Counted from the stretch's first letter, positions 30,030-42,260 are shown. The stretch: 64,000 nt of DNA from an uncultured Caulobacterales bacterium (GCA_903858685.1 CAIOJR010000166.1:1-64000); one strand, 5' to 3'. Notes: a model not told the origin generated them from the letters alone. Numbers and translations are program-made.

Positions 30030-31423
30030 CTCAATTGGCCTCCAGCCGCCCCGGCGCTGCGACGGGACAGCCCATAGACGGCGCAACCTGACAGCAAAAG
30101 GACAGACGAGGCGAACACCAATTTGAACGCCTCGCCCAACTGGTTCGCCGCATCCGGGCTTGGCGTCAGCGTGCAGGCCACCGCCGTCGCCGTAGCGACC
30201 ATGCCGACGCCGCCTATGGCCAGGGCGCCGCGCCGGCCGCCCGGACTGCGCCAGCCCTCCGCGCCCACAGGTCTGGCCTGAACCGCCAGAAAGACAGCGA
30301 ACAGGAACAGAAACGGCAGGGTGTAGGACAGGACGCTCATCGCCACCAGAAAATCATAGGCGCCCTTGAGCGTATCGCCCGCGCGGGACAGATAGATGAA
30401 CAGGGCCACGATCGCCATCTGGGTCAGGATCGAGGTTGTGGGCGCGCCGGTCCTTGGATCACGTCGCCCGAAGGCCCTGGGCAGATAGGCGTCCAGTCCC
30501 GCCGCAAACGGCAATCGGGCCGCCACCCCAAACCAGGCGCTATAGGAGCCCAGGGTCCCCAGAAAGGCGGCGATCAGGACGATTGGCGCCAGCCAGCCCA
30601 GTCCCAGCTGTCCCAGGCCCAGAATGATGGCGTCGGGCAGGCCTGCCAGCCGTGTCGCCGCACCCGGCGACAAAATGGCCAGCATCCCCGCCGTTCCCAT
30701 CACATAGCCGATGATCTGGAACACGGCGACCAGAGCCAGCACGGCCAGTATGGTCTTCATCCCGCCCACGACATCGTTGCGCAGAAAGGCCAGAGCTTCG
30801 CTGCCGCCGACGCCGAACACCATGGTCGCCCACAGGATCGCGCTGCTGGCGTCCGGCTTGAGCAGATAGCTGGCGTGGACGAAGTCGGTCGCAGAACCTC
30901 TGGTCGCCGCCACCACCGCCCCCGCCACAATCAACACCGCCAGCAATAGCAGGTTGGAAAAGCCGCCAATATTGGACAGCCATTTGCCGCTGCCCAGCCC
31001 CAGAAGGTGCAGGCCGCCGACCGCCGTCGACAGGGCCAGAGCCACGATGATGAACAGGGTCGGCTGGTCCAGCATCGGCTTGGCCGCCGGCCCGATGATC
31101 GAGGCGGCCAGCTGCAGCATGAACACCAGCATGGCCGAGAAGAAGGGCAGATTGCAGGTCCAGTAGAGCCAGCCGCACAAAAACCCCCAGAAGGGTCCAA
31201 ACACCTCCCGCGTCCAGGCATAGACCCCGCCCTCGCCCGTGAACCGGGTCGTCAACTCGCCGGTGGCCACGATCAGGGGCAGGGAAAAACACACCACCGA
31301 CACCGCCCAGAAAGGCAGGGAGGCGGGCCCCGACGCCGCGGCGACAGATATCCAGCGGATCGAAAGCGCCATGGACGCCGCATAGAAAAAGAGGTCGGAG
31401 AATTTCAGCGTCCTGGTTCCCAT
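30026..31423 (-). CDS. APC-family amino acid/amine permease
   Basis: A 465-residue inner-membrane transporter with about twelve hydrophobic helices. It starts with the APC pattern LKFSDLFFYAAS; the consensus motif GEGGVYAWTREVFGPFWGF follows around residue 75, then WLYWTCNLPFF. ATG 31423 is preceded by GGGAGG; the open frame continues to 31516 without family similarity. The coupling with the Rieske oxygenase points to uptake of an amino acid, amine or betaine-like substrate that the oxygenase then attacks (inference). The 186-nt gap to the divergent gene at 31610 should hold promoters for both. Confidence 0.83.
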   Translation of the reverse strand: MGTRTLKFSDLFFYAASMALSIRWISVAAASGPASLPFWAVSVVCFSLPLIVATGELTTRFTGEGGVYAWTREVFGPFWGFLCGWLYWTCNLPFFSAMLVFMLQLAASIIGPAAKPMLDQPTLFIIVALALSTAVGGLHLLGLGSGKWLSNIGGFSNLLLLAVLIVAGAVVAATRGSATDFVHASYLLKPDASSAILWATMVFGVGGSEALAFLRNDVVGGMKTILAVLALVAVFQIIGYVMGTAGMLAILSPGAATRLAGLPDAIILGLGQLGLGWLAPIVLIAAFLGTLGSYSAWFGVAARLPFAAGLDAYLPRAFGRRDPRTGAPTTSILTQMAIVALFIYLSRAGDTLKGAYDFLVAMSVLSYTLPFLFLFAVFLAVQARPVGAEGWRSPGGRRGALAIGGVGMVATATAVACTLTPSPDAANQLGEAFKLVFASSVLLLSGCAVYGLSRRSAGAAGGQLR

Positions 31424-31609
31424 TGCGCTGAACGCCTCCCATGGCCTGATCTGCGAAAAGTTTCGGCGGCGCGTCTTTCGCAGCGCGCTTCCCATGGGCC
31501 CATTGATCTTCGCCAAGCAGGCGCGGTCAAGCCAGCCCTTGCTCTTCGACGCCGAATTCGCGAGGGACAGGGGCGCGCGCCGTCGCCTGGCTCAGAGAAT
31601 CCCCATCCC

Positions 31610-33148
31610 GTGACCTCGAACCTTCGCAATCTGATCAGGGCGAGCCTGCGTATCGCAGCCGGAGCGGCGATGTTGCTGGCGGTGGTGGCGGTGAATGGGC
31701 GCCCGGTCGTGTTCGCCGACACCAATATCTATTACTGGATGGGCCAGTTGGAGATGCGTCCGGTGCGCTACGCCCTGGCGCCCCTGATCGGCGGTCCGAC
31801 CTCGCAGGCCAGCGACCCGGACGCCGCTGACGAATCGCCAGCCGAGATGCAGATGCGCCGGACTGAAATGGCCGCTCGCTCGCCCTGGTTCGGGCTGTTG
31901 CTGTATGGCGTGGAGTCCTTGGGCGGGCTTTGGCTGCTGGCCGGACTTCAGGCCGCAGCGGCCAGCTTCGCCATCCACGCCCTGTGGCGGGCCGCAGCGC
32001 CCAAGGCGGGCGCGTGGACGTGGCTGGGCCTGATGGCGGGCCTGAGCGTGACCTCCACCCTGCCCTTCTTCGCCGGCTTCGCCATGCCCGATCTGTGGGC
32101 GGGCGCAGGGCTTTGCGCCCTGGCCGTGCTGGCCCTCTATCCGGATCGCCTGAGACCCGCGACCCGCGCCGGCCTGTTCCTGCTGGTCTTCGCCGCCATG
32201 GCCTTTCACAAGACCAATGGCGCCGTCGCGGCTGGCGCCCTGTGCGCCCTGGCGATCCTGAACCTGGCCATGCGCCGCCCCTTGAAACGCTTGGCCCTGG
32301 CGGCCCTGATGCTGCTGGGCGCCATGGTCGTGTCCGTGCTGCTCGACGCCGCCTATGCGGGAGCGATCCGCTCGGCGACCGGAGAAACATTGCGCGCCCC
32401 CCCCTTTCTGGCGGCGCGCCTTCTGGCCGACGGTCCGGGCCGGACCTATCTGAGAGCCGCTTGCGCCCGTGGAGAGCCATGGGAGCTGTGCCGCTATGCG
32501 CAGCGTCCCCTCGATGATTCTCAGGACATCCTGTGGTCCGGCGATCCGAAGAAGGGCGTGTTCGGGGTGGCGACCGCCGCCCAGCGCATCCGCATCGACG
32601 AGCAGCAGACCCGTTTCGTCCTCAGCGTCGTGCGCGCCTACCCCCTGCAGGCGGCTGAAGCGGCGCTGCGCAATGGCGTGACGGAGCTTGGACTGGTCTA
32701 TCTGGACGACCCGGTGCGAGATCCGCATTTCTACCTGACAGACCCGGACTGGCGCGACACCTTCATCGCCGACATGGTTCACCGAATGAGCGATTGCGGC
32801 GACCATGAGACCGGTTGCAAGCCGCGTTTCGACCGTGCGCAGTCCATGGTCTGGCACAGCGCCTTCTTCGCAATGGCCGCCCTGTTCAGTCTGATGCGTC
32901 TCTGCGCCCGCGATATCCGCACCGCGCTCGCCCGCCGCGACGAACAGACGACGCGGCTCGTGCTGCTGGCCGGGTTTATGATCTGTGCGACCGTGATCAA
33001 CGCCGCCGTGACCGGCGCACTGTCGGGCACATTTGCGCGGTATCAGGCCCGCATTTCGTGGCTCATCCCCATGCTGGCGCTCATCATGAGCGCGGTGTTT
33101 GGCGCGAGGCAGGCGAAAAGGTTTGGCCGCACGGGCGCAGACGTCTAA
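31610..33148 (+). CDS. Multi-pass membrane protein, GT-C-like, paralogue 1
   Basis: A 512-residue integral membrane protein of a family I cannot name, paralogous to 34985-36529. Blocks shared with the paralogue: NGRPVVFADTNIYY (from residue 29), AARSPWFGLLLYG, STLPFFAGFAMPD (from 149), PPFLAARLLADGPGR, LCRYAQRPLD, DPVRDPHFY, and SGTFARYQARISWLIP near the C-terminus. Two cysteine pairs are conserved at identical spacing (C-x8-C before RY; C-x6-C in SDCGDHETGCKPRF), suggesting periplasmic disulfides. An acidic residue in the first loop and about ten helices recall GT-C polyprenyl-linked sugar transferases, but no established motif proves it. GTG 31610 is inferred from the first helix; the RBS is weak. 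Confidence 0.7.
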   Translation: MTSNLRNLIRASLRIAAGAAMLLAVVAVNGRPVVFADTNIYYWMGQLEMRPVRYALAPLIGGPTSQASDPDAADESPAEMQMRRTEMAARSPWFGLLLYGVESLGGLWLLAGLQAAAASFAIHALWRAAAPKAGAWTWLGLMAGLSVTSTLPFFAGFAMPDLWAGAGLCALAVLALYPDRLRPATRAGLFLLVFAAMAFHKTNGAVAAGALCALAILNLAMRRPLKRLALAALMLLGAMVVSVLLDAAYAGAIRSATGETLRAPPFLAARLLADGPGRTYLRAACARGEPWELCRYAQRPLDDSQDILWSGDPKKGVFGVATAAQRIRIDEQQTRFVLSVVRAYPLQAAEAALRNGVTELGLVYLDDPVRDPHFYLTDPDWRDTFIADMVHRMSDCGDHETGCKPRFDRAQSMVWHSAFFAMAALFSLMRLCARDIRTALARRDEQTTRLVLLAGFMICATVINAAVTGALSGTFARYQARISWLIPMLALIMSAVFGARQAKRFGRTGADV

Positions 33149-33174
33149 GCAAGCCGTCCGCGCAAGGAATGCCC

Positions 33175-33639
33175 ATGTCGATTGAAGACCTTATGGAGCT
33201 GGTGATTTCTCACCTGCCCAAACCGCTGCAAAGACTGGCGCGCCTGATTGATCCCGCCTTTATCCGGTTCGGCTTTGTCGGCGGCACGGGATTTATCGTG
33301 GACTGGATCGGTCTCAGCCTTCTGGTCCGGTTTGCACACTGGACGCCCTATAACGCCCGCTACCTGTCCTTTACCGTGGCCGTCGCCGCCACCTGGCTGT
33401 TGAACCGGACATGGACCTTCAAGCGCGCAAGCTCCAAGCCGACCCTGAAAGAGGTCGGCAGCTATGTCGCGGTGCAGCTGACCGGCGGCGTGGCCAATAT
33501 CGGCGCCTATGCCCTGGCCCTGCATTTTGCGCCCGGGCTCAAGACCCTGCTGGTCGTGCCGCTCATCATCGGTTCCGCCATCGGCCTTTGCCTGACCTTC
33601 GCCGGATCGAAATATTGGGCCTTCAAGCGCGTCGCCTAG
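33175..33639 (+). CDS. GtrA-family membrane protein (lipid-linked sugar flippase)
   Basis: A 154-residue protein with four membrane helices and the GtrA pattern: FIRFGFVGGTGFIVDWIGL, RYLSFTVAVAATWLLNRTWTF, QLTGGVANIGAYAL, and GSAIGLCLTFAGSKYWAF. GtrA proteins are thought to flip undecaprenyl-phosphate-linked sugars across the inner membrane for periplasmic transferases. ATG 33175 has AAGGA 6 nt upstream; the in-frame ATG at 33169 overlaps the RBS. It lies 26 nt after paralogue 1 and 121 nt before the GT2, all on the plus strand, which supports a shared pathway. Confidence 0.88.
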   Translation: MSIEDLMELVISHLPKPLQRLARLIDPAFIRFGFVGGTGFIVDWIGLSLLVRFAHWTPYNARYLSFTVAVAATWLLNRTWTFKRASSKPTLKEVGSYVAVQLTGGVANIGAYALALHFAPGLKTLLVVPLIIGSAIGLCLTFAGSKYWAFKRVA

Positions 33640-33760
33640 TCCCAGACTTACAAATATTTCAGTTAGGCAATTCGCCGCTGACACCCATAACGAAATTGTG
33701 ATAGTGCGCTGCAACAGATTGCACCGCCCGCCATCCGCCCCTCATTCACGGATTTTCAAC

Positions 33761-34969
33761 ATGGCCGTTGTCGCCCTGAAGCCGCATGAAGTCACCAGCA
33801 CGCTGCACGTCATCGAGCCGACGAGCCTGGAACTCACCATCCTGATGCCCTGCCTGAACGAGGCGGAAACCATCGAGATCGTGGTGAACAAGGCCATGAC
33901 CTGGCTGAAGGCGTCCGGCCTGTCTGGCGAGGTGCTGATCGCCGACAATGGCAGCCGCGACGGCTCGCAGGCCATGGCCGAGGCGCTGGGCGCCCGCGTG
34001 GTGGCCGTGCCGGAAAAGGGTTATGGCGCAGCCCTGATGGGCGGCATCCGCGCCGCCCGCGGCAAGTATGTCATCATGGGCGATGCTGACGACAGCTACG
34101 ACTTCTCCAAGCTCGACGCCTTTGTGGAGCGCCTGCAGGACGGCGCCGATCTGGTCATGGGCAACCGCTTCAAGGGCGGGATCGAAAAAGGCGCCATGCC
34201 TCCGCTGCATTACTGGCTGGGCAATCCCGTCCTGTCCTTCCTCGGCCGCCTGCTCTATTCCATTCCTGTGGGCGACTTCCACTGCGGACTGCGCGGCTTC
34301 GACCGCGACGCCATCCTGGCCCTGGGCCTGAAGAGCCCGGGCATGGAGTTCGCCAGCGAAATGGTGGTGAAGGCTTCTCTGGCCAAGCTGCCCATGGCCG
34401 AAGTGCCCACCACGCTGAAGCCCGACGGCCGCAGCCGGGCGCCGCACCTGAAGACCTGGCGCGATGGCTGGCGCCACCTGAAGTTCCTGCTGCTGCACAG
34501 CCCGAAATGGATGTTCATCTATCCGGGTCTGGCCCTGATGGCGGCGGGTCTGTTCGGCTCCATCCTGCTGGCGCCCGGCGCCGTGGCGATCACGCCGACC
34601 GTCGAACTCGACATCCATTCGCTGGTCGTGGCCTGCTTCGCCGTGCTGATCGGCACGCAGCTTGTCATGTTCGGCGCCCTCGCCCGTCGCTACGCCATGC
34701 TCGAAGGCGTTCTGCCCAATCCGTCCAGCTTCAAGAAGATCCTGCTGGGCATGGAGCTGGAGCCGATCCTGCGCGTTGCGGGCGTCATCTTCGCCGCGGG
34801 CGCCATTGGCGCTGTCTGGGCAGTGTCGACCTGGGCCGCCAACGGCTTTGGCCCGATTGTCTACAACAACGTGATGCGCGGCCTCGTGATCTCGTTGACG
34901 GCGATCACCGTTGCAGTGCAGATCGGGGCTGCAGGCGTTCTGGCCTCCATGCTGAACATCCGTCGCTGA
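33761..34969 (+). CDS. GtrB/DPM1-like glycosyltransferase family 2
   Basis: A 402-residue enzyme that would transfer a sugar from a nucleotide donor to a polyprenyl phosphate at the inner face of the membrane. The GT-A domain shows ILMPCLNEAETIEIVV (from residue 27), DNGSRDGSQAM, the metal-binding DADDSYDF (from 108) and GLRGFDRDA. The C-terminal 130 residues carry four hydrophobic helices, as in GtrB. ATG 33761 begins MAVVALKPHEV; the frame from 33698 is not conserved. The 121-nt leader has lower GC than its surroundings and could hold an internal promoter. The donor sugar is unknown. Confidence 0.86.
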   Translation: MAVVALKPHEVTSTLHVIEPTSLELTILMPCLNEAETIEIVVNKAMTWLKASGLSGEVLIADNGSRDGSQAMAEALGARVVAVPEKGYGAALMGGIRAARGKYVIMGDADDSYDFSKLDAFVERLQDGADLVMGNRFKGGIEKGAMPPLHYWLGNPVLSFLGRLLYSIPVGDFHCGLRGFDRDAILALGLKSPGMEFASEMVVKASLAKLPMAEVPTTLKPDGRSRAPHLKTWRDGWRHLKFLLLHSPKWMFIYPGLALMAAGLFGSILLAPGAVAITPTVELDIHSLVVACFAVLIGTQLVMFGALARRYAMLEGVLPNPSSFKKILLGMELEPILRVAGVIFAAGAIGAVWAVSTWAANGFGPIVYNNVMRGLVISLTAITVAVQIGAAGVLASMLNIRR

Positions 34970-34984
34970 CGAGGTCATCCATTC

Positions 34985-36529
34985 ATGCACAGGCTTCTGA
35001 GGCGATCTTGGGTACAGGTCGTAATTGGAACCCTGTTGCTGATGGCGGTCATTCTGGTGAACGGCCGCCCTTCGGTCTTCACCGATACTGACGACTATTA
35101 CGCACAGGGGCGCGGCGCCGCTCACGCGGTCAAGCCGCTGGTTCAGCCGCTCGTCCACGCCCTCTTTCATCCCAAGAGCGCGCCGGACGACGACCGGACC
35201 TATCTGCAGGCGGAGGCCGACGAGGACCACACCTCCATGGCCGCCCGCTCGCCCTATTACGGCGTGTTCCTCTATGCGAGCTACAAGGCGGGCAGCCTGT
35301 GGATGCTGGCCCTGATCCAGTCGGCGATCGCCGCCTGGACCGTCTACACCGTCATTCTGGGCGTTGTCCGAGACCTGAAGGTCTGGACCTATCCGGCCAT
35401 CATGCTGGGGCTGAGCCTCTTGTCCACGCTGCCCTTCTTCACCGGCTTCGCCATGCCTGACGTGTTCGCCTCATTGGGCGCGCTGGCGACCATCGGACTG
35501 GCGGTCGGCTGGACGCGCTATGGCTGGCTTCAGCGCGTCGGTCTGTTCGGCGTGATCACCATGTCCTTGTGGTTCCACACGTCGCATGTCCTGCTCGAAC
35601 TGATCCTGGTCGTGTCGCTCTGCGCCGTGCTCTGGTGGTTCCATGCGGACACCAAGCGCATGGCCTTGACGGCCGGCGTCCTGATCGCCGTTGTAGCGTC
35701 CGCCTTCGCCTCGGACCGCGCCTATCATGACCTGGTGAAGTTCCGCACAGGCGAGGACCTGCACCGACCGCCATTCCTGATGGCGCGCGTTCTGGCGGAC
35801 GGACCGGGCAGGCTCTATCTGCGCGACGCCTGCGCCAAGGCCACGCCCTATGTTCTGTGCCGCTACAAGCGCAACCCGCTGGACAATTCCGACGAGATCC
35901 TGTGGGCCGACGACCCGGCGCGCGGAATATTCAACGCCTCCAAGATCCCTGTGCGCATCGCATTGGAACGTGAGGAAAAGGCGTTCGTCATCGGGACCTT
36001 GACCCATTATCCGGTGTCGCAGCTCGCAGCCTCCCTGTCGAACTGGTGGGAACAGCTCAGCCTGATCGACCTGGCCGAGCCCCTGCGCGATCCGACCTAT
36101 TATTTCGCCAATATCTATTGGAAGGACACCAGCCTGCCGGGCCTGATCCCGGGAGGACTGAAATGTGTGAAAACGCCGAAACTGTGCCGCCCCAACCTGA
36201 ACATGGATGCGCTGGAATGGGTGCACGGCCTGACCATTCTGGCGTCCAGCCTCTTCCTTTTGTGGCGCTTTACGCGCCGCGACCTGATCGAGGCGCTGGC
36301 CGGACGCGAAGCGCTCAGCGTCGGTTCACGGCAATCCATCGTGGCCATGGCGGCGCTGGTGGTGGTGGCGGTGATCATGAATGCGGGCGTGACCGGCATA
36401 TTGTCCGGCCCCTTCTCCCGCTATCACGCACGTATGGTCTGGCTGATCCCGGCATTGGCGTTTACGGTTCTGGCGAGTCACGGGCTGGGCTTCAACATCT
36501 TCAAAAAGACGGACGATCCGACGCCATAG
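34985..36529 (+). CDS. Multi-pass membrane protein, GT-C-like, paralogue 2
   Basis: A 514-residue integral membrane protein 15 nt after the GT2, clearly homologous to 31610-33148 along its whole length. Shared blocks: NGRPSVFTDTDDYY (from residue 26), AARSPYYGVFLY, STLPFFTGFAMPD (from 147), PPFLMARVLADGPGR, LCRYKRNPLD, EPLRDPTYY and SGPFSRYHARMVWLIP. The C-x8-C and C-x6-C cysteine pairs are kept (ACAKATPYVLCRY; KCVKTPKLCRP). A GAGG lies 9 nt before ATG 34985. By gene order (GtrA, GtrB-like GT2, this protein) it occupies the place of the specific transferase in gtr serotype-conversion operons. That role is inferred, since the sequence matches no Gtr transferase I know. Confidence 0.72.
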   Translation: MHRLLRRSWVQVVIGTLLLMAVILVNGRPSVFTDTDDYYAQGRGAAHAVKPLVQPLVHALFHPKSAPDDDRTYLQAEADEDHTSMAARSPYYGVFLYASYKAGSLWMLALIQSAIAAWTVYTVILGVVRDLKVWTYPAIMLGLSLLSTLPFFTGFAMPDVFASLGALATIGLAVGWTRYGWLQRVGLFGVITMSLWFHTSHVLLELILVVSLCAVLWWFHADTKRMALTAGVLIAVVASAFASDRAYHDLVKFRTGEDLHRPPFLMARVLADGPGRLYLRDACAKATPYVLCRYKRNPLDNSDEILWADDPARGIFNASKIPVRIALEREEKAFVIGTLTHYPVSQLAASLSNWWEQLSLIDLAEPLRDPTYYFANIYWKDTSLPGLIPGGLKCVKTPKLCRPNLNMDALEWVHGLTILASSLFLLWRFTRRDLIEALAGREALSVGSRQSIVAMAALVVVAVIMNAGVTGILSGPFSRYHARMVWLIPALAFTVLASHGLGFNIFKKTDDPTP

Positions 36530-36605: not shown

Positions 36606-39600
36606 ATGCCAGGATACGTGTTTCACGACCCAAGCGGCCGCCGGGCCCGTAATGTCCGCCTGCTCAGCGGGGTTGCGGTGGCGTTGGTCTTCGCCATTTT
36701 CGCCGCCTTCGCCGCCAGTCTGGCCTTTGCGCCCCATGTGCCCGAAGTGCGCTTTCGCGACCCGCACACGCTCAAGGCGCTGAACGTCAAGATCCCGCAC
36801 GGCCCCACGCCCTGGACCCGCCTGCCCCGCCCGCCCAAATCGCGCGGCTCAGGCCAGCGCCCCCTGTCGGTCGGCTTCTATGTCAGCTGGGACGAGCAGT
36901 CGGCCCAGGCCCTGCACGACCACATGGCAGAGCTGGACGTGATCGCGCCGCAATGGATTCTGGTCGATACGCCAGACGGGCAGGTCAATGTCACCGCCGA
37001 CCCGCGCGCCGACGACATGCTGCGGCGCGCCAAGAAGCGCCCCGCCGTCATGCCCGTGGTTCACAACGCCAGCGATGGAACCTGGAACTCAAAGCCCATT
37101 GAGCAGCTGTTGCGCAATCCCAAGGCGCGCGCCGCCCTGATCCACAACCTGATCACTCTGGCTGAGCAGCGCGGCTATTCGGGCTATGTGTTCGACTTCG
37201 AGAACCTGTCGCCCGAGGCGCTGGCCCTCTACCCGGCCTTTATCTCCGACGTGAATACCGCCTTTAACCCCAGCGGTCGTGAAATCTGGGTGACCGTGCC
37301 CGTGGACGATACGGACTGGCCGCTCAAGGCGCTGCAAAACGCCTCCGACGCCATCATGCCCATGATGTATGACGAGCACTGGCAATCCGCCACGCCGGGG
37401 CCGGCCGCCTCCCAGGCCTGGTTCCAGGCCAAGCTGTCGGAATATCTGCGCGGCCTTGATCCCAACAAGATCATCCTGGCCCTGGGCTCATACGGATATG
37501 ACTGGACCAGGGGCGCAAATCTGGCCCAGGCCATCACCTTCCACGAGGCGATGCAGGCGGCCCATGACGCCTCGGTGCCGGTCACCTTCGACCGCACCGC
37601 GCTCAATCCCATGTTCCGTTACGCCGATGACAAGGGCAAGGCTCACGAGGTCTGGTTCCTCGACGCCGCCACCATGTACAACCAGATCCATGTCGCCGAC
37701 GCCTGGCGTCTGCGCGGATACGCGGTCTGGCGCATGGGCTCCGAGGATCCCGGCGTCTGGTCCCTGCTGGGTCGCAGCTACGACACGGCCAACATCAACA
37801 ACCTGCCCGAAATGCCCGCAAGTCAGGACATTGACTTCAATGGCTTCGGAGAGGTGATGAATGTGTCCGAAAAACCGGCGCCGGGGCGTCGTCGACTGAC
37901 GCTGGACAAGCCGACCGGCCTGGTCACCAACGAGATTGTCGATATCTATCCCTCCGCCTGGGTGGTGCAGCGTCTGGGGCAGAGCCCCGGCAAGGTCGCC
38001 CTGACATTTGACGACGGACCGGACCCGCGCTGGACCTCGAAAATTCTCGACATTCTGAAGGAGAAGCAGGTCAAGGCCACCTTCTTCGTCATCGGGCGAA
38101 ACATGGAGGACTATCCCGAACTGGTCGCGCGCGAGGTGAGCGAGGGCCACATTGTCGGTAGCCACAGCTTCACCCATCCCAATATAGCCGAAGAGCCGCC
38201 CAGCGCCGTACCGCTGGAGTTCAATCTGACGCAGCGACTGTTTCAGGTCGTCACGGGCAAGACCCTGCGCTTTTTCCGCCCGCCCTATCTGGGCGACGCC
38301 TCGCCCTCGACGGCGGCGGAACTGGCGCCGCTGCTGATCGCTGAAAAGCTCGGCTATGTGACGGTGGGCCTGAGGATCGACCCGGACGACTGGAACCGGC
38401 CCGACGCCGATCTGATCGTCAGCCGCACCCTGGCGCGACTTCAGGACGACAATCCGGAGACGGGTGGACAGGTAGTTCTGCTGCACGATTCCGGCGGCAA
38501 TCGCAGCCGCACCATCGCCGCCCTGCCCAAGCTGATCGACGCGCTGCGCGCTCATGGCTATCAGATCGTCACGGTCGCGGACCTGATCGGCATGCCTGCG
38601 GCCCAGGCCATGCCGCCCGCCACCCGCGACCCCTTCCAGTTGACGCTTGATCGCACCGTGTTCAGCACCGTGCGCGGCTTTGACAAGTTCATCGCGGCGC
38701 TGTTCCTTTCAGCCATTCTGATCGGCCTTGCGCGCCTGATCTTCCTGGCCGTGCTGGCGCTCTATCACCGCGCTGTCATCGACCGGCGCACGCCGGAGGA
38801 GATCCCGCCCGGGACGGGTCCCTTCGTCACCGTGCTGATCCCCTGTTATAATGAAGAGGCGGTGATCGTCTCCTCGATCCGCCAGGTTCTGGACTCCCAC
38901 TGGACCAACATGGAAGTCCTCGTCATAGACGACGGCTCCAAGGACAACACCTCAGCCGAGGTTCAGAAGGCCTATAGCGATCATCCCATGGTGCGGTTGC
39001 TGCGGTTCGAGAACGGCGGCAAGGCCATGGCGCTCAATCGCGGTCTGGCCCTGGCCAAGGGCGATATTGTCGTGGCGCTCGACGCTGACACCCTGTTCGC
39101 CAAGTCGACGATCGGACGGCTGGCCCGCTGGTTCCGCGACCCGCGCGTGGGGGCCGTGGCGGGCAACGCCCTGGTCGGCAATCAGGTCAACACGGTCACG
39201 CGCTGGCAGGCGCTGGAATATGTCTCCGCCCAGAATCTGGAGCGTCGCGCCCTGGCGGCGCTGGGGACGGTGACCGTTGTGCCCGGCGCGGTCGGCGCCT
39301 GGCGGCGTCAGACCCTGGAAGCCCTTGGCGGCTTTCCCCATGACACGCTGGCGGAGGATCAGGACCTGACGCTCGCCGCCCAGTCGGCCGGCTGGGTGGT
39401 CGAGTTCGACCCCGAGGCTGTGGCCTTTACCGAGGCGCCCGAAACGGTGGCGGGACTTCTGAAACAGCGCTTCCGCTGGTCGTTCGGCACGCTGCAATGC
39501 GTATGGAAACACCGCAAGGACCTGTTCAATCCCAGGCGCCCCGCTCTGGGCTTTCTGGCCCTGCCGCAGATCTGGCTGTTCCAGATCTTCCTGACCACCG

Positions 39601-39989
39601 CGGCGCCTCTGGTCGATCTGGCGGCCATATTCAGTCTGATTTCTGCGGGCTTTGACCGCCTGTCGCATCCGGGCGAGTGGAACAGCGAGGGTCTGACCCG
39701 CGCGCTGCTCTACTGGGCGGCCTTTGTGCTGGTCGATCTGGCGGCGGCCTCCATCGGCATGGCGCTGGAGCGCCGCGCGCCCTGGAGCAGCCTGGCCTGG
39801 CTTCCGGCGCAACGATTCGGCTATCGGCAACTGATGTATTATGTGGTGGTCAAGGCCGTGGTCAGCGCGATCCATGGGCGCCGGGTCGAGTGGGGCTCGC
39901 TCCAGCGCACCGCCAGCGCCGTGGTGGACACCCGCGGCGACAGCGCCGGCGCCGACAAGGCGCAAGCCAAACCGGGCGCCCCTGCGTAA
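36606..39989 (+). CDS. Trimodular GH18-like/CE4 deacetylase/GT2 synthase
   Basis: A 1127-residue membrane enzyme with three catalytic modules. An N-terminal anchor helix lies at about residues 20-40. A GH18-like domain spans about 85-420, with GYVFDFENL (Glu199 as the likely acid) and MPMMYDEHW. A CE4 (NodB) deacetylase domain spans about 460-690, with TFDDGPDP (Asp469/Asp470), HSFTHPN (His520, His524) and FRPPY. After a helix near 700-720 comes a processive GT2 with VTVLIPCYNEE (from 738), DDGS (775-778), DADT (826-829), EDQD (917-920) and QRFRW (954-958), then about four helices. The layout suggests synthesis of a beta-linked amino-sugar polymer and its deacetylation and trimming outside. 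The start at 36606 has only a weak RBS. It follows the GT-C-like gene by 76 nt. Confidence 0.85.
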   Translation: MPGYVFHDPSGRRARNVRLLSGVAVALVFAIFAAFAASLAFAPHVPEVRFRDPHTLKALNVKIPHGPTPWTRLPRPPKSRGSGQRPLSVGFYVSWDEQSAQALHDHMAELDVIAPQWILVDTPDGQVNVTADPRADDMLRRAKKRPAVMPVVHNASDGTWNSKPIEQLLRNPKARAALIHNLITLAEQRGYSGYVFDFENLSPEALALYPAFISDVNTAFNPSGREIWVTVPVDDTDWPLKALQNASDAIMPMMYDEHWQSATPGPAASQAWFQAKLSEYLRGLDPNKIILALGSYGYDWTRGANLAQAITFHEAMQAAHDASVPVTFDRTALNPMFRYADDKGKAHEVWFLDAATMYNQIHVADAWRLRGYAVWRMGSEDPGVWSLLGRSYDTANINNLPEMPASQDIDFNGFGEVMNVSEKPAPGRRRLTLDKPTGLVTNEIVDIYPSAWVVQRLGQSPGKVALTFDDGPDPRWTSKILDILKEKQVKATFFVIGRNMEDYPELVAREVSEGHIVGSHSFTHPNIAEEPPSAVPLEFNLTQRLFQVVTGKTLRFFRPPYLGDASPSTAAELAPLLIAEKLGYVTVGLRIDPDDWNRPDADLIVSRTLARLQDDNPETGGQVVLLHDSGGNRSRTIAALPKLIDALRAHGYQIVTVADLIGMPAAQAMPPATRDPFQLTLDRTVFSTVRGFDKFIAALFLSAILIGLARLIFLAVLALYHRAVIDRRTPEEIPPGTGPFVTVLIPCYNEEAVIVSSIRQVLDSHWTNMEVLVIDDGSKDNTSAEVQKAYSDHPMVRLLRFENGGKAMALNRGLALAKGDIVVALDADTLFAKSTIGRLARWFRDPRVGAVAGNALVGNQVNTVTRWQALEYVSAQNLERRALAALGTVTVVPGAVGAWRRQTLEALGGFPHDTLAEDQDLTLAAQSAGWVVEFDPEAVAFTEAPETVAGLLKQRFRWSFGTLQCVWKHRKDLFNPRRPALGFLALPQIWLFQIFLTTAAPLVDLAAIFSLISAGFDRLSHPGEWNSEGLTRALLYWAAFVLVDLAAASIGMALERRAPWSSLAWLPAQRFGYRQLMYYVVVKAVVSAIHGRRVEWGSLQRTASAVVDTRGDSAGADKAQAKPGAPA

Positions 39990-40118: not shown

Positions 40119-42260
40119 GTGGGCAAACCGATGAGCCGGGCTGGTAAACTTCTTTGTGCGGTCGCTGCTGTGGCCCTGGCGGGGACGGTCGTCACCCTGT
40201 CAGGTTGCGGTCAGGGCAAGGGCGCCGCTCAGGTCGATCAGGCCAGACTGCTGGCCGCCGACAAGGAGCCGGGCAACTGGATGAGCCATGGCCGCACCTG
40301 GTCCGAGCAGCGTTTCTCGCCGCTCGACAAGGTCAATGCCAGCAATGTGGGCAATCTGGGCCTGGCCTGGAGCTTCCAGCTCTCCACCAACCGCGGCGTG
40401 GAGGTGACGCCCGTCGTCGTCGACGGGACCATGTATGTCACCTCGTCCTGGAGCGTGGTCTACGCCCTGAACGCCAAGACCGGCGCGCTTCTGTGGAAAT
40501 ATGACCCGCAGGTCCCGCGTGAGACCGGCAAGTTCGCCTGTTGCGACGTGGTCAATCGCGGCGTCGCCGTCTGGAAGGGCAAGGTCTATGTCGCCGCCCT
40601 GGACGGCCGTCTGATCGCGCTGGACGCCAAGTCCGGCCAACCGGCCTGGAGCGTCAACACCACCGACCCCAAGCTGCCCTACACCATCACCGGCGCCCCG
40701 CGCGTCTTCAAGGACAAGGTGGTGATCGGCAATGGCGGCTCTGAATATGGCGTGCGCGGCTATGTCACCGCCTATGACGCCGCAGACGGCAAGCAACTCT
40801 GGCGCTTCTATACAACGCCGGGCGACCCGTCCAAGCCGCAGGAGTCGAAGGCCCTGGAGATGGCCGTCAAGACCTGGCAGGGCGACTGGTTCAAGCAGGG
40901 CGGCGGCGGCGGATCACCGTGGGACTCCATGTCCTACGACCCCGATCTGAACATGCTCTATTTCGGCACCGGAAACGGCGCCCCCTGGGACCAGACCTCG
41001 CGCTCCAAGGGTCAGGGGGACAATCTGTTCCTGTCCTCGATCGTGGCGGTGGACGCCGATACGGGCGAATACAGGTGGCACTATCAGACTACGCCGGGCG
41101 ACACCTGGGACTTCGACTCCACCCAGACCGTCACCCTGGCGGACCTGACCATCGACGGCCAGCCGCGCAAGGTGCTGATGCAGGCCGCCAAGAACGGCTT
41201 TTTCTATGTGATCGACCGGACCAACGGAAAGCTGCTCAGCGCCCATAATTACGTGACCACCAGCTGGGCCAGCAGCGTCGATCCGGCGACAGGCCGTCCC
41301 ATCGAACAGGGCGACCCGCGTTACAAGAAGGGGCCGGCCATCGTCATGCCGTCCAGCTTCGGCGGACATAACTGGCATCCCCAGTCCTTCAGCCCCAAGA
41401 CGGGTCTGGTCTATCTTCCGGCGCAGGACGTGCCGGGCGTCTATGGCACGGACGACAAGTACGCCTACAAGAACGGCGAGTGGAACACGGCCAACGACAC
41501 CAGGCTGAACAGTCTGCCGGACGACAAGAAGGCCCGCGCGGCCATGAAGAACTCCATGCGCGGCATGCTCGTGGCGTGGGATCCGGTCGCTGGCAAGGAA
41601 GCCTGGCGCGCCGAGCACAAGGGCCCCTGGAACGGCGGCACCATGGCCACAGCCGGTGGTCTTGTCTTCCAGGGCACGCTGGACGGCAAGTTCAACGCCT
41701 ATGACGCGTCCAACGGCAAGCCGCTCTGGACGACCGACGCCTATGCCGCCGTCCTGGCTGGGCCCATGACCTATGAGGTCGACGGCGAACAGTATGTGGC
41801 CGTGGGCGCAGGCTTCGGATCCGTCTTCTATCTGGTGGCGGGCTTTGCGCTCGACCATCCGGGCAACCCGGAAAATGGCCGCATTCTGGTCTACAAGCTG
41901 GGCGGAACGGCCACCCTGCCCAAGCCCGACATGACCAAGATCGCCGTGCCCAAGCCGCCAGCCGACGCCGCCTCGGCCCAGATCGTGGCGACCGGTCATG
42001 CGACCTACAACAAGTATTGCCTGGTCTGCCATGGCTATAACGCCATTGGCGGCGGCGTGATCCCGGACCTGCGCTATTCCAGCCTGATCGGCGACGATAC
42101 GGGCTTCAAGGGCGTGGTGCTGCGCGGGGACCGCAAGTCCAATGGCATGGTCAGTTTCGCCAGCACCCTGTCGGCGACCGACGCGGACGCCATCCGCGCC
42201 TATCTGATCCATGAGGCCAACGGCGCCTATGCCGCGGAACAGGCTCCGGCAGCCAAATAG
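40119..42260 (+). CDS. PQQ-dependent quinohaemoprotein alcohol dehydrogenase, lipoprotein
   Basis: A 713-residue periplasmic dehydrogenase that oxidises alcohols with PQQ and passes electrons to its own haem c. An N-terminal lipoprotein signal ends in LSGC. An eight-bladed propeller follows with WMSHGRTWSEQRFSPLDKVN, the vicinal disulfide cysteines in KFACCDV, tryptophan-docking repeats, and PGDTWDFDSTQT holding the catalytic Asp of WDF. The C-terminal cytochrome domain has CLVCH and a later Met ligand. The Asp two places after the catalytic one (D-F-D) is the arrangement linked to lanthanide use in XoxF and PedH. GTG 40119 has AAGGA at good spacing; ATG 40131 is an alternative. A clear terminator follows. 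Confidence 0.88.
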   Translation: MGKPMSRAGKLLCAVAAVALAGTVVTLSGCGQGKGAAQVDQARLLAADKEPGNWMSHGRTWSEQRFSPLDKVNASNVGNLGLAWSFQLSTNRGVEVTPVVVDGTMYVTSSWSVVYALNAKTGALLWKYDPQVPRETGKFACCDVVNRGVAVWKGKVYVAALDGRLIALDAKSGQPAWSVNTTDPKLPYTITGAPRVFKDKVVIGNGGSEYGVRGYVTAYDAADGKQLWRFYTTPGDPSKPQESKALEMAVKTWQGDWFKQGGGGGSPWDSMSYDPDLNMLYFGTGNGAPWDQTSRSKGQGDNLFLSSIVAVDADTGEYRWHYQTTPGDTWDFDSTQTVTLADLTIDGQPRKVLMQAAKNGFFYVIDRTNGKLLSAHNYVTTSWASSVDPATGRPIEQGDPRYKKGPAIVMPSSFGGHNWHPQSFSPKTGLVYLPAQDVPGVYGTDDKYAYKNGEWNTANDTRLNSLPDDKKARAAMKNSMRGMLVAWDPVAGKEAWRAEHKGPWNGGTMATAGGLVFQGTLDGKFNAYDASNGKPLWTTDAYAAVLAGPMTYEVDGEQYVAVGAGFGSVFYLVAGFALDHPGNPENGRILVYKLGGTATLPKPDMTKIAVPKPPADAASAQIVATGHATYNKYCLVCHGYNAIGGGVIPDLRYSSLIGDDTGFKGVVLRGDRKSNGMVSFASTLSATDADAIRAYLIHEANGAYAAEQAPAAK

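Follow-up and report, generated by a model that had tools for sequence, protein, structure and literature searches.

What does a membrane protein make that carries a glycoside hydrolase, a deacetylase and a processive glycosyltransferase domain on one chain, and to which known system does it belong? This question is raised by the open reading frame at 36606-39989 (+) of the window, the 64,000-nucleotide stretch of DNA from an uncultured Caulobacterales bacterium that was analysed. The frame is intact, with ATG at 36606, the stop at 39989 and no internal stop, and encodes 1127 amino acids. Its GC3 of 0.83 is like that of the neighbouring genes, and the composition is of coding type. Pfam matches were obtained for GH18 (aa 89-378, E 1e-13), CE4 (aa 461-563, 6e-33) and GT2 (aa 741-961, 1e-33). 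The reading frame, these matches and orthologues identify a trimodular GH18-CE4-GT2 membrane protein; all features of the window given below lie on the same strand.

For the GH18 domain (aa 86-392, 36861-37781) the motif YVFDFE with D197 and E199 as well as Y255/D256 were found, so that D-x-E and the tyrosine are both present in a TIM barrel. The CE4 (NodB-homology) deacetylase domain (aa 459-661, 37980-38588) contains TFDDGP (D469/D470), HSFTH (H520/H524), D595-W596 and H627, covering the metal and catalytic motifs DD, HxxxH, DxxDW and LxH. In the GT2 domain (aa 738-968, 38817-39509) D776, D826xD828, E917-D918 and QRFRW (954-958) were detected. These are the D, DxD, ED and QxxRW motifs of processive GT2 enzymes, and they are accompanied by transmembrane (TM) helices. 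Reading frame, Pfam and motifs confirmed that, as described in the initial annotation, one chain carries three active sites, all of them intact; order of domains and catalytic residues are those of the trimodular family. In 49 trimodular proteins all checked CE4 and GT2 residues are invariant, except W596 (48/49). The GH18 residues are less fixed, with D197 in 48, E199 in 45 and Y255 in 43 of the 49 proteins.

An AlphaFold2 model was built with 49 natural relatives (mean pLDDT 89, pTM 0.69). It consists of a TM1 helix (12-40), GH18 (~86-392), a beta domain (~402-458), CE4 (459-661), a long helix (676-728), GT2 (741-968) and C-terminal helices at 979-1020, 1028-1054 and 1060-1090. By hydrophobicity and the model, the last region (aa 979-1090, 39540-39875) comprises interface and TM helices. 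TM segments were located at ~23-41 (TM1) and, between CE4 and GT2, at ~699-717 within the long helix (TM2, 38631-38789), which runs from the periplasm to the cytosol according to hydrophobicity and model. Residues 1-22 are inside, judged by hydrophobicity and charge. With a first crossing ahead of GH18 and a second between CE4 and GT2, the two enzymatic halves are predicted on opposite sides of the membrane. This agrees with the former proposal of GH18 and CE4 facing GT2 across the membrane; the contrary arrangement, CE4 and GT2 on the same side, was not found in the prediction. In Foldseek searches the GH18 domain matched SleL, YdhD and bacterial class V chitinases, the CE4 domain matched B. 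cereus Bc1960 (PgdA), and the matches of GT2 were PcManGT, hyaluronan synthase and BcsA.

Two elements had been overlooked in the earlier reading. One is an N-terminal motif of MatA type (F6, D8, R13), discussed below. The other is a conserved all-beta domain of about 55 residues at the GH18/CE4 junction (aa ~402-458, 37809-37979), which is modelled with confidence (strands 409-458, pLDDT ~90) and is without a Pfam family.

The gene was present and intact in 5/5 genomes of the same genus with 80-81% identity, one copy being truncated by a contig end; the nearest named record in this uncultured Caulobacterales genus is CAISEP010000014.1. Among 40 relatives, 11 further genomes of the order carry it with 40-62% identity. 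In the GTDB genome collection at least 586 confirmed relatives were found. Among the best 80 of these at least 586, trimodular proteins belong to Pseudomonadota, Acidobacteriota, Gemmatimonadota, Verrucomicrobiota, Cyanobacteriota, Thermodesulfobacteriota and Dormibacterota, and CE4-GT2 proteins without GH18 to Actinomycetota. The occurrence is patchy (6/299 sampled Pseudomonadota genomes, 8/199 genomes of the Streptomyces phylum). Similar trimodular proteins had already been said to exist in databases; with hundreds of relatives from numerous phyla, the GH18-CE4-GT2 architecture is established and widespread, not unusual. Presumably, the NCBI CDD entries GH18_trifunctional (cd06549) and CE4_GT2-like (cd10962) stand for this architecture, which their family would share with the 1127-aa protein. 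To our knowledge, these entries give no function and mention neither MatA nor the N-terminal motif. No functional study of a GH18-CE4-GT2 protein was found in the literature searched. One trimodular record titled Arthrobacter sp. TPD3018 (L049, QDFQ01000004.1) is nested inside Sphingomonas and is probably mislabelled or contaminated.

The CE4-GT2 half was compared with MatAB of Streptomyces (SCO2963/SCO2962; PMC4391728, PMC5972031). MatB was described with an extracellular CE4, a TM helix and an intracellular GT2 (PMC5972031). Loss of matA or matB in S. lividans abolishes the staining of poly-N-acetylglucosamine (PNAG), and the polymer is sensitive to dispersin B (PMC5972031). In a tree of the CE4-GT2 region all 36 proteins without GH18 group in a single clade (SH-aLRT 100), and the trimodular proteins of Dormibacterota adjoin it (support 93). 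CE4-GT2 proteins from loci with the synteny ftsX-smpB-matA-matB, where an S41-like peptidase gene accompanies ftsX and smpB as it does around SCO2962, fall inside this clade. Judged by tree and domain order (CE4-TM-GT2), the CE4-GT2 half is homologous to MatB. Rooting on three outside GT2s, among them E. coli PgaC, was rejected, as long branches meet and the root is unreliable; hence, neither the fused nor the split state is called the older one. An amino-sugar polymer as product, formerly suggested, is likely in view of this homology, since MatB is required together with MatA for PNAG (PMC5972031). The contrast to systems with separate proteins had been drawn too strongly, because MatB already combines both enzymes, deacetylase and synthase, in a single chain. 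MatAB differs from the trimodular protein in being two proteins of a monoderm host without GH18. Furthermore, MatB has its own N-terminal TM segment and MatA a long low-complexity tail.

A counterpart of MatA was identified in the N-terminus, here called the N-module (aa 4-41, 36615-36728), with the motif VFHDPSGRR followed by TM1. It was recognised by residue conservation and profile searches. F6 and R13 are conserved in 49/49 and D8 in 48/49 trimodular proteins, which puts them on a par with the active sites of CE4 and GT2 and above E199 and Y255 of GH18. Residues 1-20 have pLDDT values of 77-92 compared to 47-65 for the linker after them, so the motif is predicted to be ordered and not a loose tail. 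A profile was derived from 53 trimodular N-termini alone and run against 4913 six-frame segments of at least 60 aa (912,878 residues) from 35 bimodular actinobacterial and 2 Dormibacterota loci. The top 30 matches (E 5e-10 to 0.03) were all the reading frame directly upstream of CE4-GT2; the 31st was noise (0.17). The strict expression [VIL]F.D.[ST]G.[RK] matched at 56 sites among 1.64 million residues; a TM segment followed at 55 of them, and no locus had more than one match. Proteins of 130 aa near nuoA in Streptomyces resemble MatA, but are matA paralogues and not true MatA. For this reason the motif was verified at the ftsX locus, where MatA of the true mat locus carries PVFVDESGRRSRTFRRIG and a TM segment. 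Across 14 MatA-type proteins VFVDxxGRR is the only invariant block and the remainder is of low complexity. The MatA motif PVFVDxSGRR with TM segment equals the N-module. By these comparisons the N-module and the conserved part of MatA are homologous; against this, the common stretch covers only about 40 residues, chiefly motif and TM.

Genome-wide searches with the profile gave one strong match in each of nine trimodular genomes, the trimodular gene itself (E 4e-13 to 3e-19). Matches at E <= 1e-3 in the remaining eight genomes adjoin CE4-GT2 with four exceptions: an orphan MatA-like gene (L187, 4519-5319), a matA without matB (L190, 4407-4934; matB seems to be deleted), a match at a contig end (L189) and a partial match missing the motif start (G340:C1). 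The first two are MatA-like genes of the Streptomyces phylum without adjacent CE4-GT2. Among 31 genomes without detected synthase the profile matched nothing below 6e-4 and nothing over the motif start. Most trimodular proteins have the N-module fused, whereas Actinomycetota and Dormibacterota have it as a separate protein. Two Dormibacterota loci encode a separate MatA-like protein followed by GH18-CE4-GT2 (L081, 7276-7872; L146, around 875), an arrangement that is intermediate between the split and fused forms. In Arthrobacter sp. SPG23 (L105, 7197-9911) the MatA motif and CE4-GT2 share one open frame, possibly by an independent MatA-MatB fusion or by a sequencing frameshift.

The new element is the MatA-type N-module, which makes the protein a Mat synthase in fused form and with a GH18 domain: the MatB-homologous CE4-TM-GT2 part and the motif with TM segment, as fused N-terminus, are present, and one gene with GH18 takes the place of two translationally coupled genes without it. 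The N-module ties the trimodular architecture to MatAB, the one tested system of that shape (PNAG, hyphal aggregation), and with it to the synthesis of biofilm polymers. For MatA, reported without known domains, this gives a defined motif in which three residues can be mutated. The product of the trimodular proteins and the role of MatA are two questions that can now be tested.

Compared with these parts, GH18 seems dispensable, because the MatB clade lacks it and 4/49 trimodular proteins have it in a catalytically dead form. In the latter the catalytic Glu is replaced by Q (L068, L071), P (L075) or S (L076) with CE4 and GT2 intact, and their GH18 domains are probable pseudo-enzymes. GH18 activity is accordingly not essential to the family. 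From the alignments GH18 appears to be optional, which sets it apart from N-module, CE4 and GT2 as the core. The rule of GH18 in diderms and none in monoderms (cf. PgaB and IcaB) fits all 36 actinobacterial proteins in the tree; it was dropped, as Dormibacterota and an actinobacterial metagenome-assembled genome (G479, L137) match over the GH18 region.

Among the known systems for PNAG, PgaABCD and IcaADBC likewise comprise a GT2 synthase, a deacetylase and a small accessory TM partner, with a hydrolase in Gram-negatives, but the activities are on separate proteins. The hydrolase of PgaB belongs to GH153 (PMC5933820), that of the trimodular protein to GH18. With NCBIfam models the GT2 domain matched PgaC/IcaA best, although with 198 bits far under the equivalog cut-off of 422, and NodC with 108 bits, also under cut-off. 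The PgaA porin and PgaB (CE4 and GH153) characteristic of PgaABCD gave no match over cut-off in the source genome (G000) or in the 40 relatives. The designation as a self-contained system was too far-reaching: no PgaA- or PgaB-family protein over cut-off accounts for the exit of a polymer across the outer membrane in this genome, which also counts against the reading given below. Gram-negative pgaB clades with glycosyltransferase fusions, without pgaA or pgaD, were reported (PMC7112194). They resemble the trimodular protein in the fusion of deacetylase and transferase and in the lack of a detected porin partner, but have an N-terminal transferase and no hydrolase domain, compared to the order GH18-CE4-GT2 (PMC7112194).

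On the whole, the protein is reasonably likely to be a fused synthase-deacetylase-hydrolase of MatA-MatB type with a periplasmic GH18, making partly deacetylated poly-GlcNAc with the N-module as accessory to GT2. GT2 would polymerise GlcNAc from UDP-GlcNAc in the cytosol, and the chain would pass the inner membrane via TM2 and the C-terminal helices. During translocation CE4 would remove part of the acetyl groups in the periplasm. GH18 might then cut or trim chains that are still acetylated, setting the chain length or releasing the chain; the retaining mechanism of GH18 requires the N-acetyl group. The N-module (VFxDxSGRR and TM1), placed at the cytosolic face, may contact GT2 and support or regulate it as PgaD/IcaD do for PgaC/IcaA. 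The predicted order of residues 1-20 is indirect support for such a contact. PgaC depends on the small membrane protein PgaD (PMC8461298). This would be a likeness of role and not family membership: PgaD was ruled out as homologue, as no sequence similarity of the N-module to E. coli PgaD was found. In a wider form, for which we see about even chances, the 40 residues of VFxDxSGRR and TM, fused or as separate MatA, could be obligatory for activating or assembling the GlcNAc-polymer synthases of a large class that spans many phyla. As a subunit analogous to PgaD/IcaD it might also be a signal-binding site, and GH18 would be an optional periplasmic processing module. Such an analogue was not described in the literature searched.

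The domains, the intact active sites, the predicted topology and the homologies to MatA and MatB come from the analysis itself, whereas donor sugar, linkage, step order, the role of GH18, the contact of N-module and GT2 and secretion out of the cell are inferred. As an alternative product, a beta-1,4 chitin- or chitosan-like polymer or oligosaccharide has to be considered, with GT2 like NodC or chitin synthase, CE4 as chitin deacetylase and GH18 as a chitinase setting the length. Beta-1,4 GlcNAc is the main substrate of GH18 enzymes and of the nearest CE4 relatives with solved structure, which, like the low PgaC/IcaA score, counts against poly-GlcNAc of the PNAG type. The solved CE4 structures nearest to this domain are PgdA and chitin deacetylases, GH18 has fold matches to SleL/YdhD and class V chitinases, and a weak Pfam match to Chitin_synth_2 was obtained. 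Moreover, the PNAG hydrolases known to us are GH20 and GH153 enzymes and not GH18. Nevertheless, a beta-1,4 product is rather unlikely: GT2 is closer to PgaC/IcaA than to NodC, and GH18 is missing in MatB and dead in the four trimodular proteins. MatB also has a CE4 of PgdA/NodB type, yet its product is dispersin-B sensitive (PMC5972031). Partly deacetylated poly-GlcNAc that is PNAG-like thus appears more probable than a chitin-like polymer. A role in the remodelling of the cell envelope (peptidoglycan) instead of extracellular polymer synthesis is very improbable. For matAB, a cell-wall role was weighed by the first discoverers (PMC4391728), matAB sits near ftsEX, and GH18 and CE4 resemble the spore-cortex and peptidoglycan enzymes SleL and PgdA; but homopolymer synthesis is indicated by the processive GT2 with QRFRW in the same protein, PNAG staining is lost in MatAB mutants (PMC5972031), and the patchy distribution in Pseudomonadota is unlike that of core wall genes.

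The genes upstream suggest a further possibility, one system of Gtr-like genes and synthase adding a side sugar to the polymer. The region 31007-36529 resembles a Gtr-like glycan-decoration cassette. It encodes a membrane protein at 31007-33148 (true start inside the frame), a protein with the GtrA-type membrane domain PF04138 (33265-33624 in the frame 32815-33639, E 1.7e-20), a GtrB-like GT2 of the dolichol/polyprenyl-phosphate sugar synthase type (33764-34969; Pfam, NCBIfam) and a polytopic membrane protein of 514 aa (34985-36529), possibly a GT-C-type transferase. The first and last are paralogues (37% identical) without Pfam family. Same strand, a gap of 76 bp to the synthase gene and a genus-wide order are in favour of a common system, as is a homologue of the 514-aa protein gene that adjoins the synthase gene in G015 too, there divergently. 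A 529-aa membrane protein beside the gene in L040 was considered as another homologue, but is unrelated. The side-sugar system is nevertheless improbable, since the synthase gene stands alone amid unrelated neighbours in most other relatives. No conserved neighbour genes were found beyond the genus; the Gtr-like genes are kept only near it and may be unrelated to the synthase. Directly downstream, at 40128-42260, a PQQ-dependent alcohol dehydrogenase with C-terminal cytochrome c domain is encoded (TIGR03075, 661 bits, over cut-off), which is conserved in the genus.
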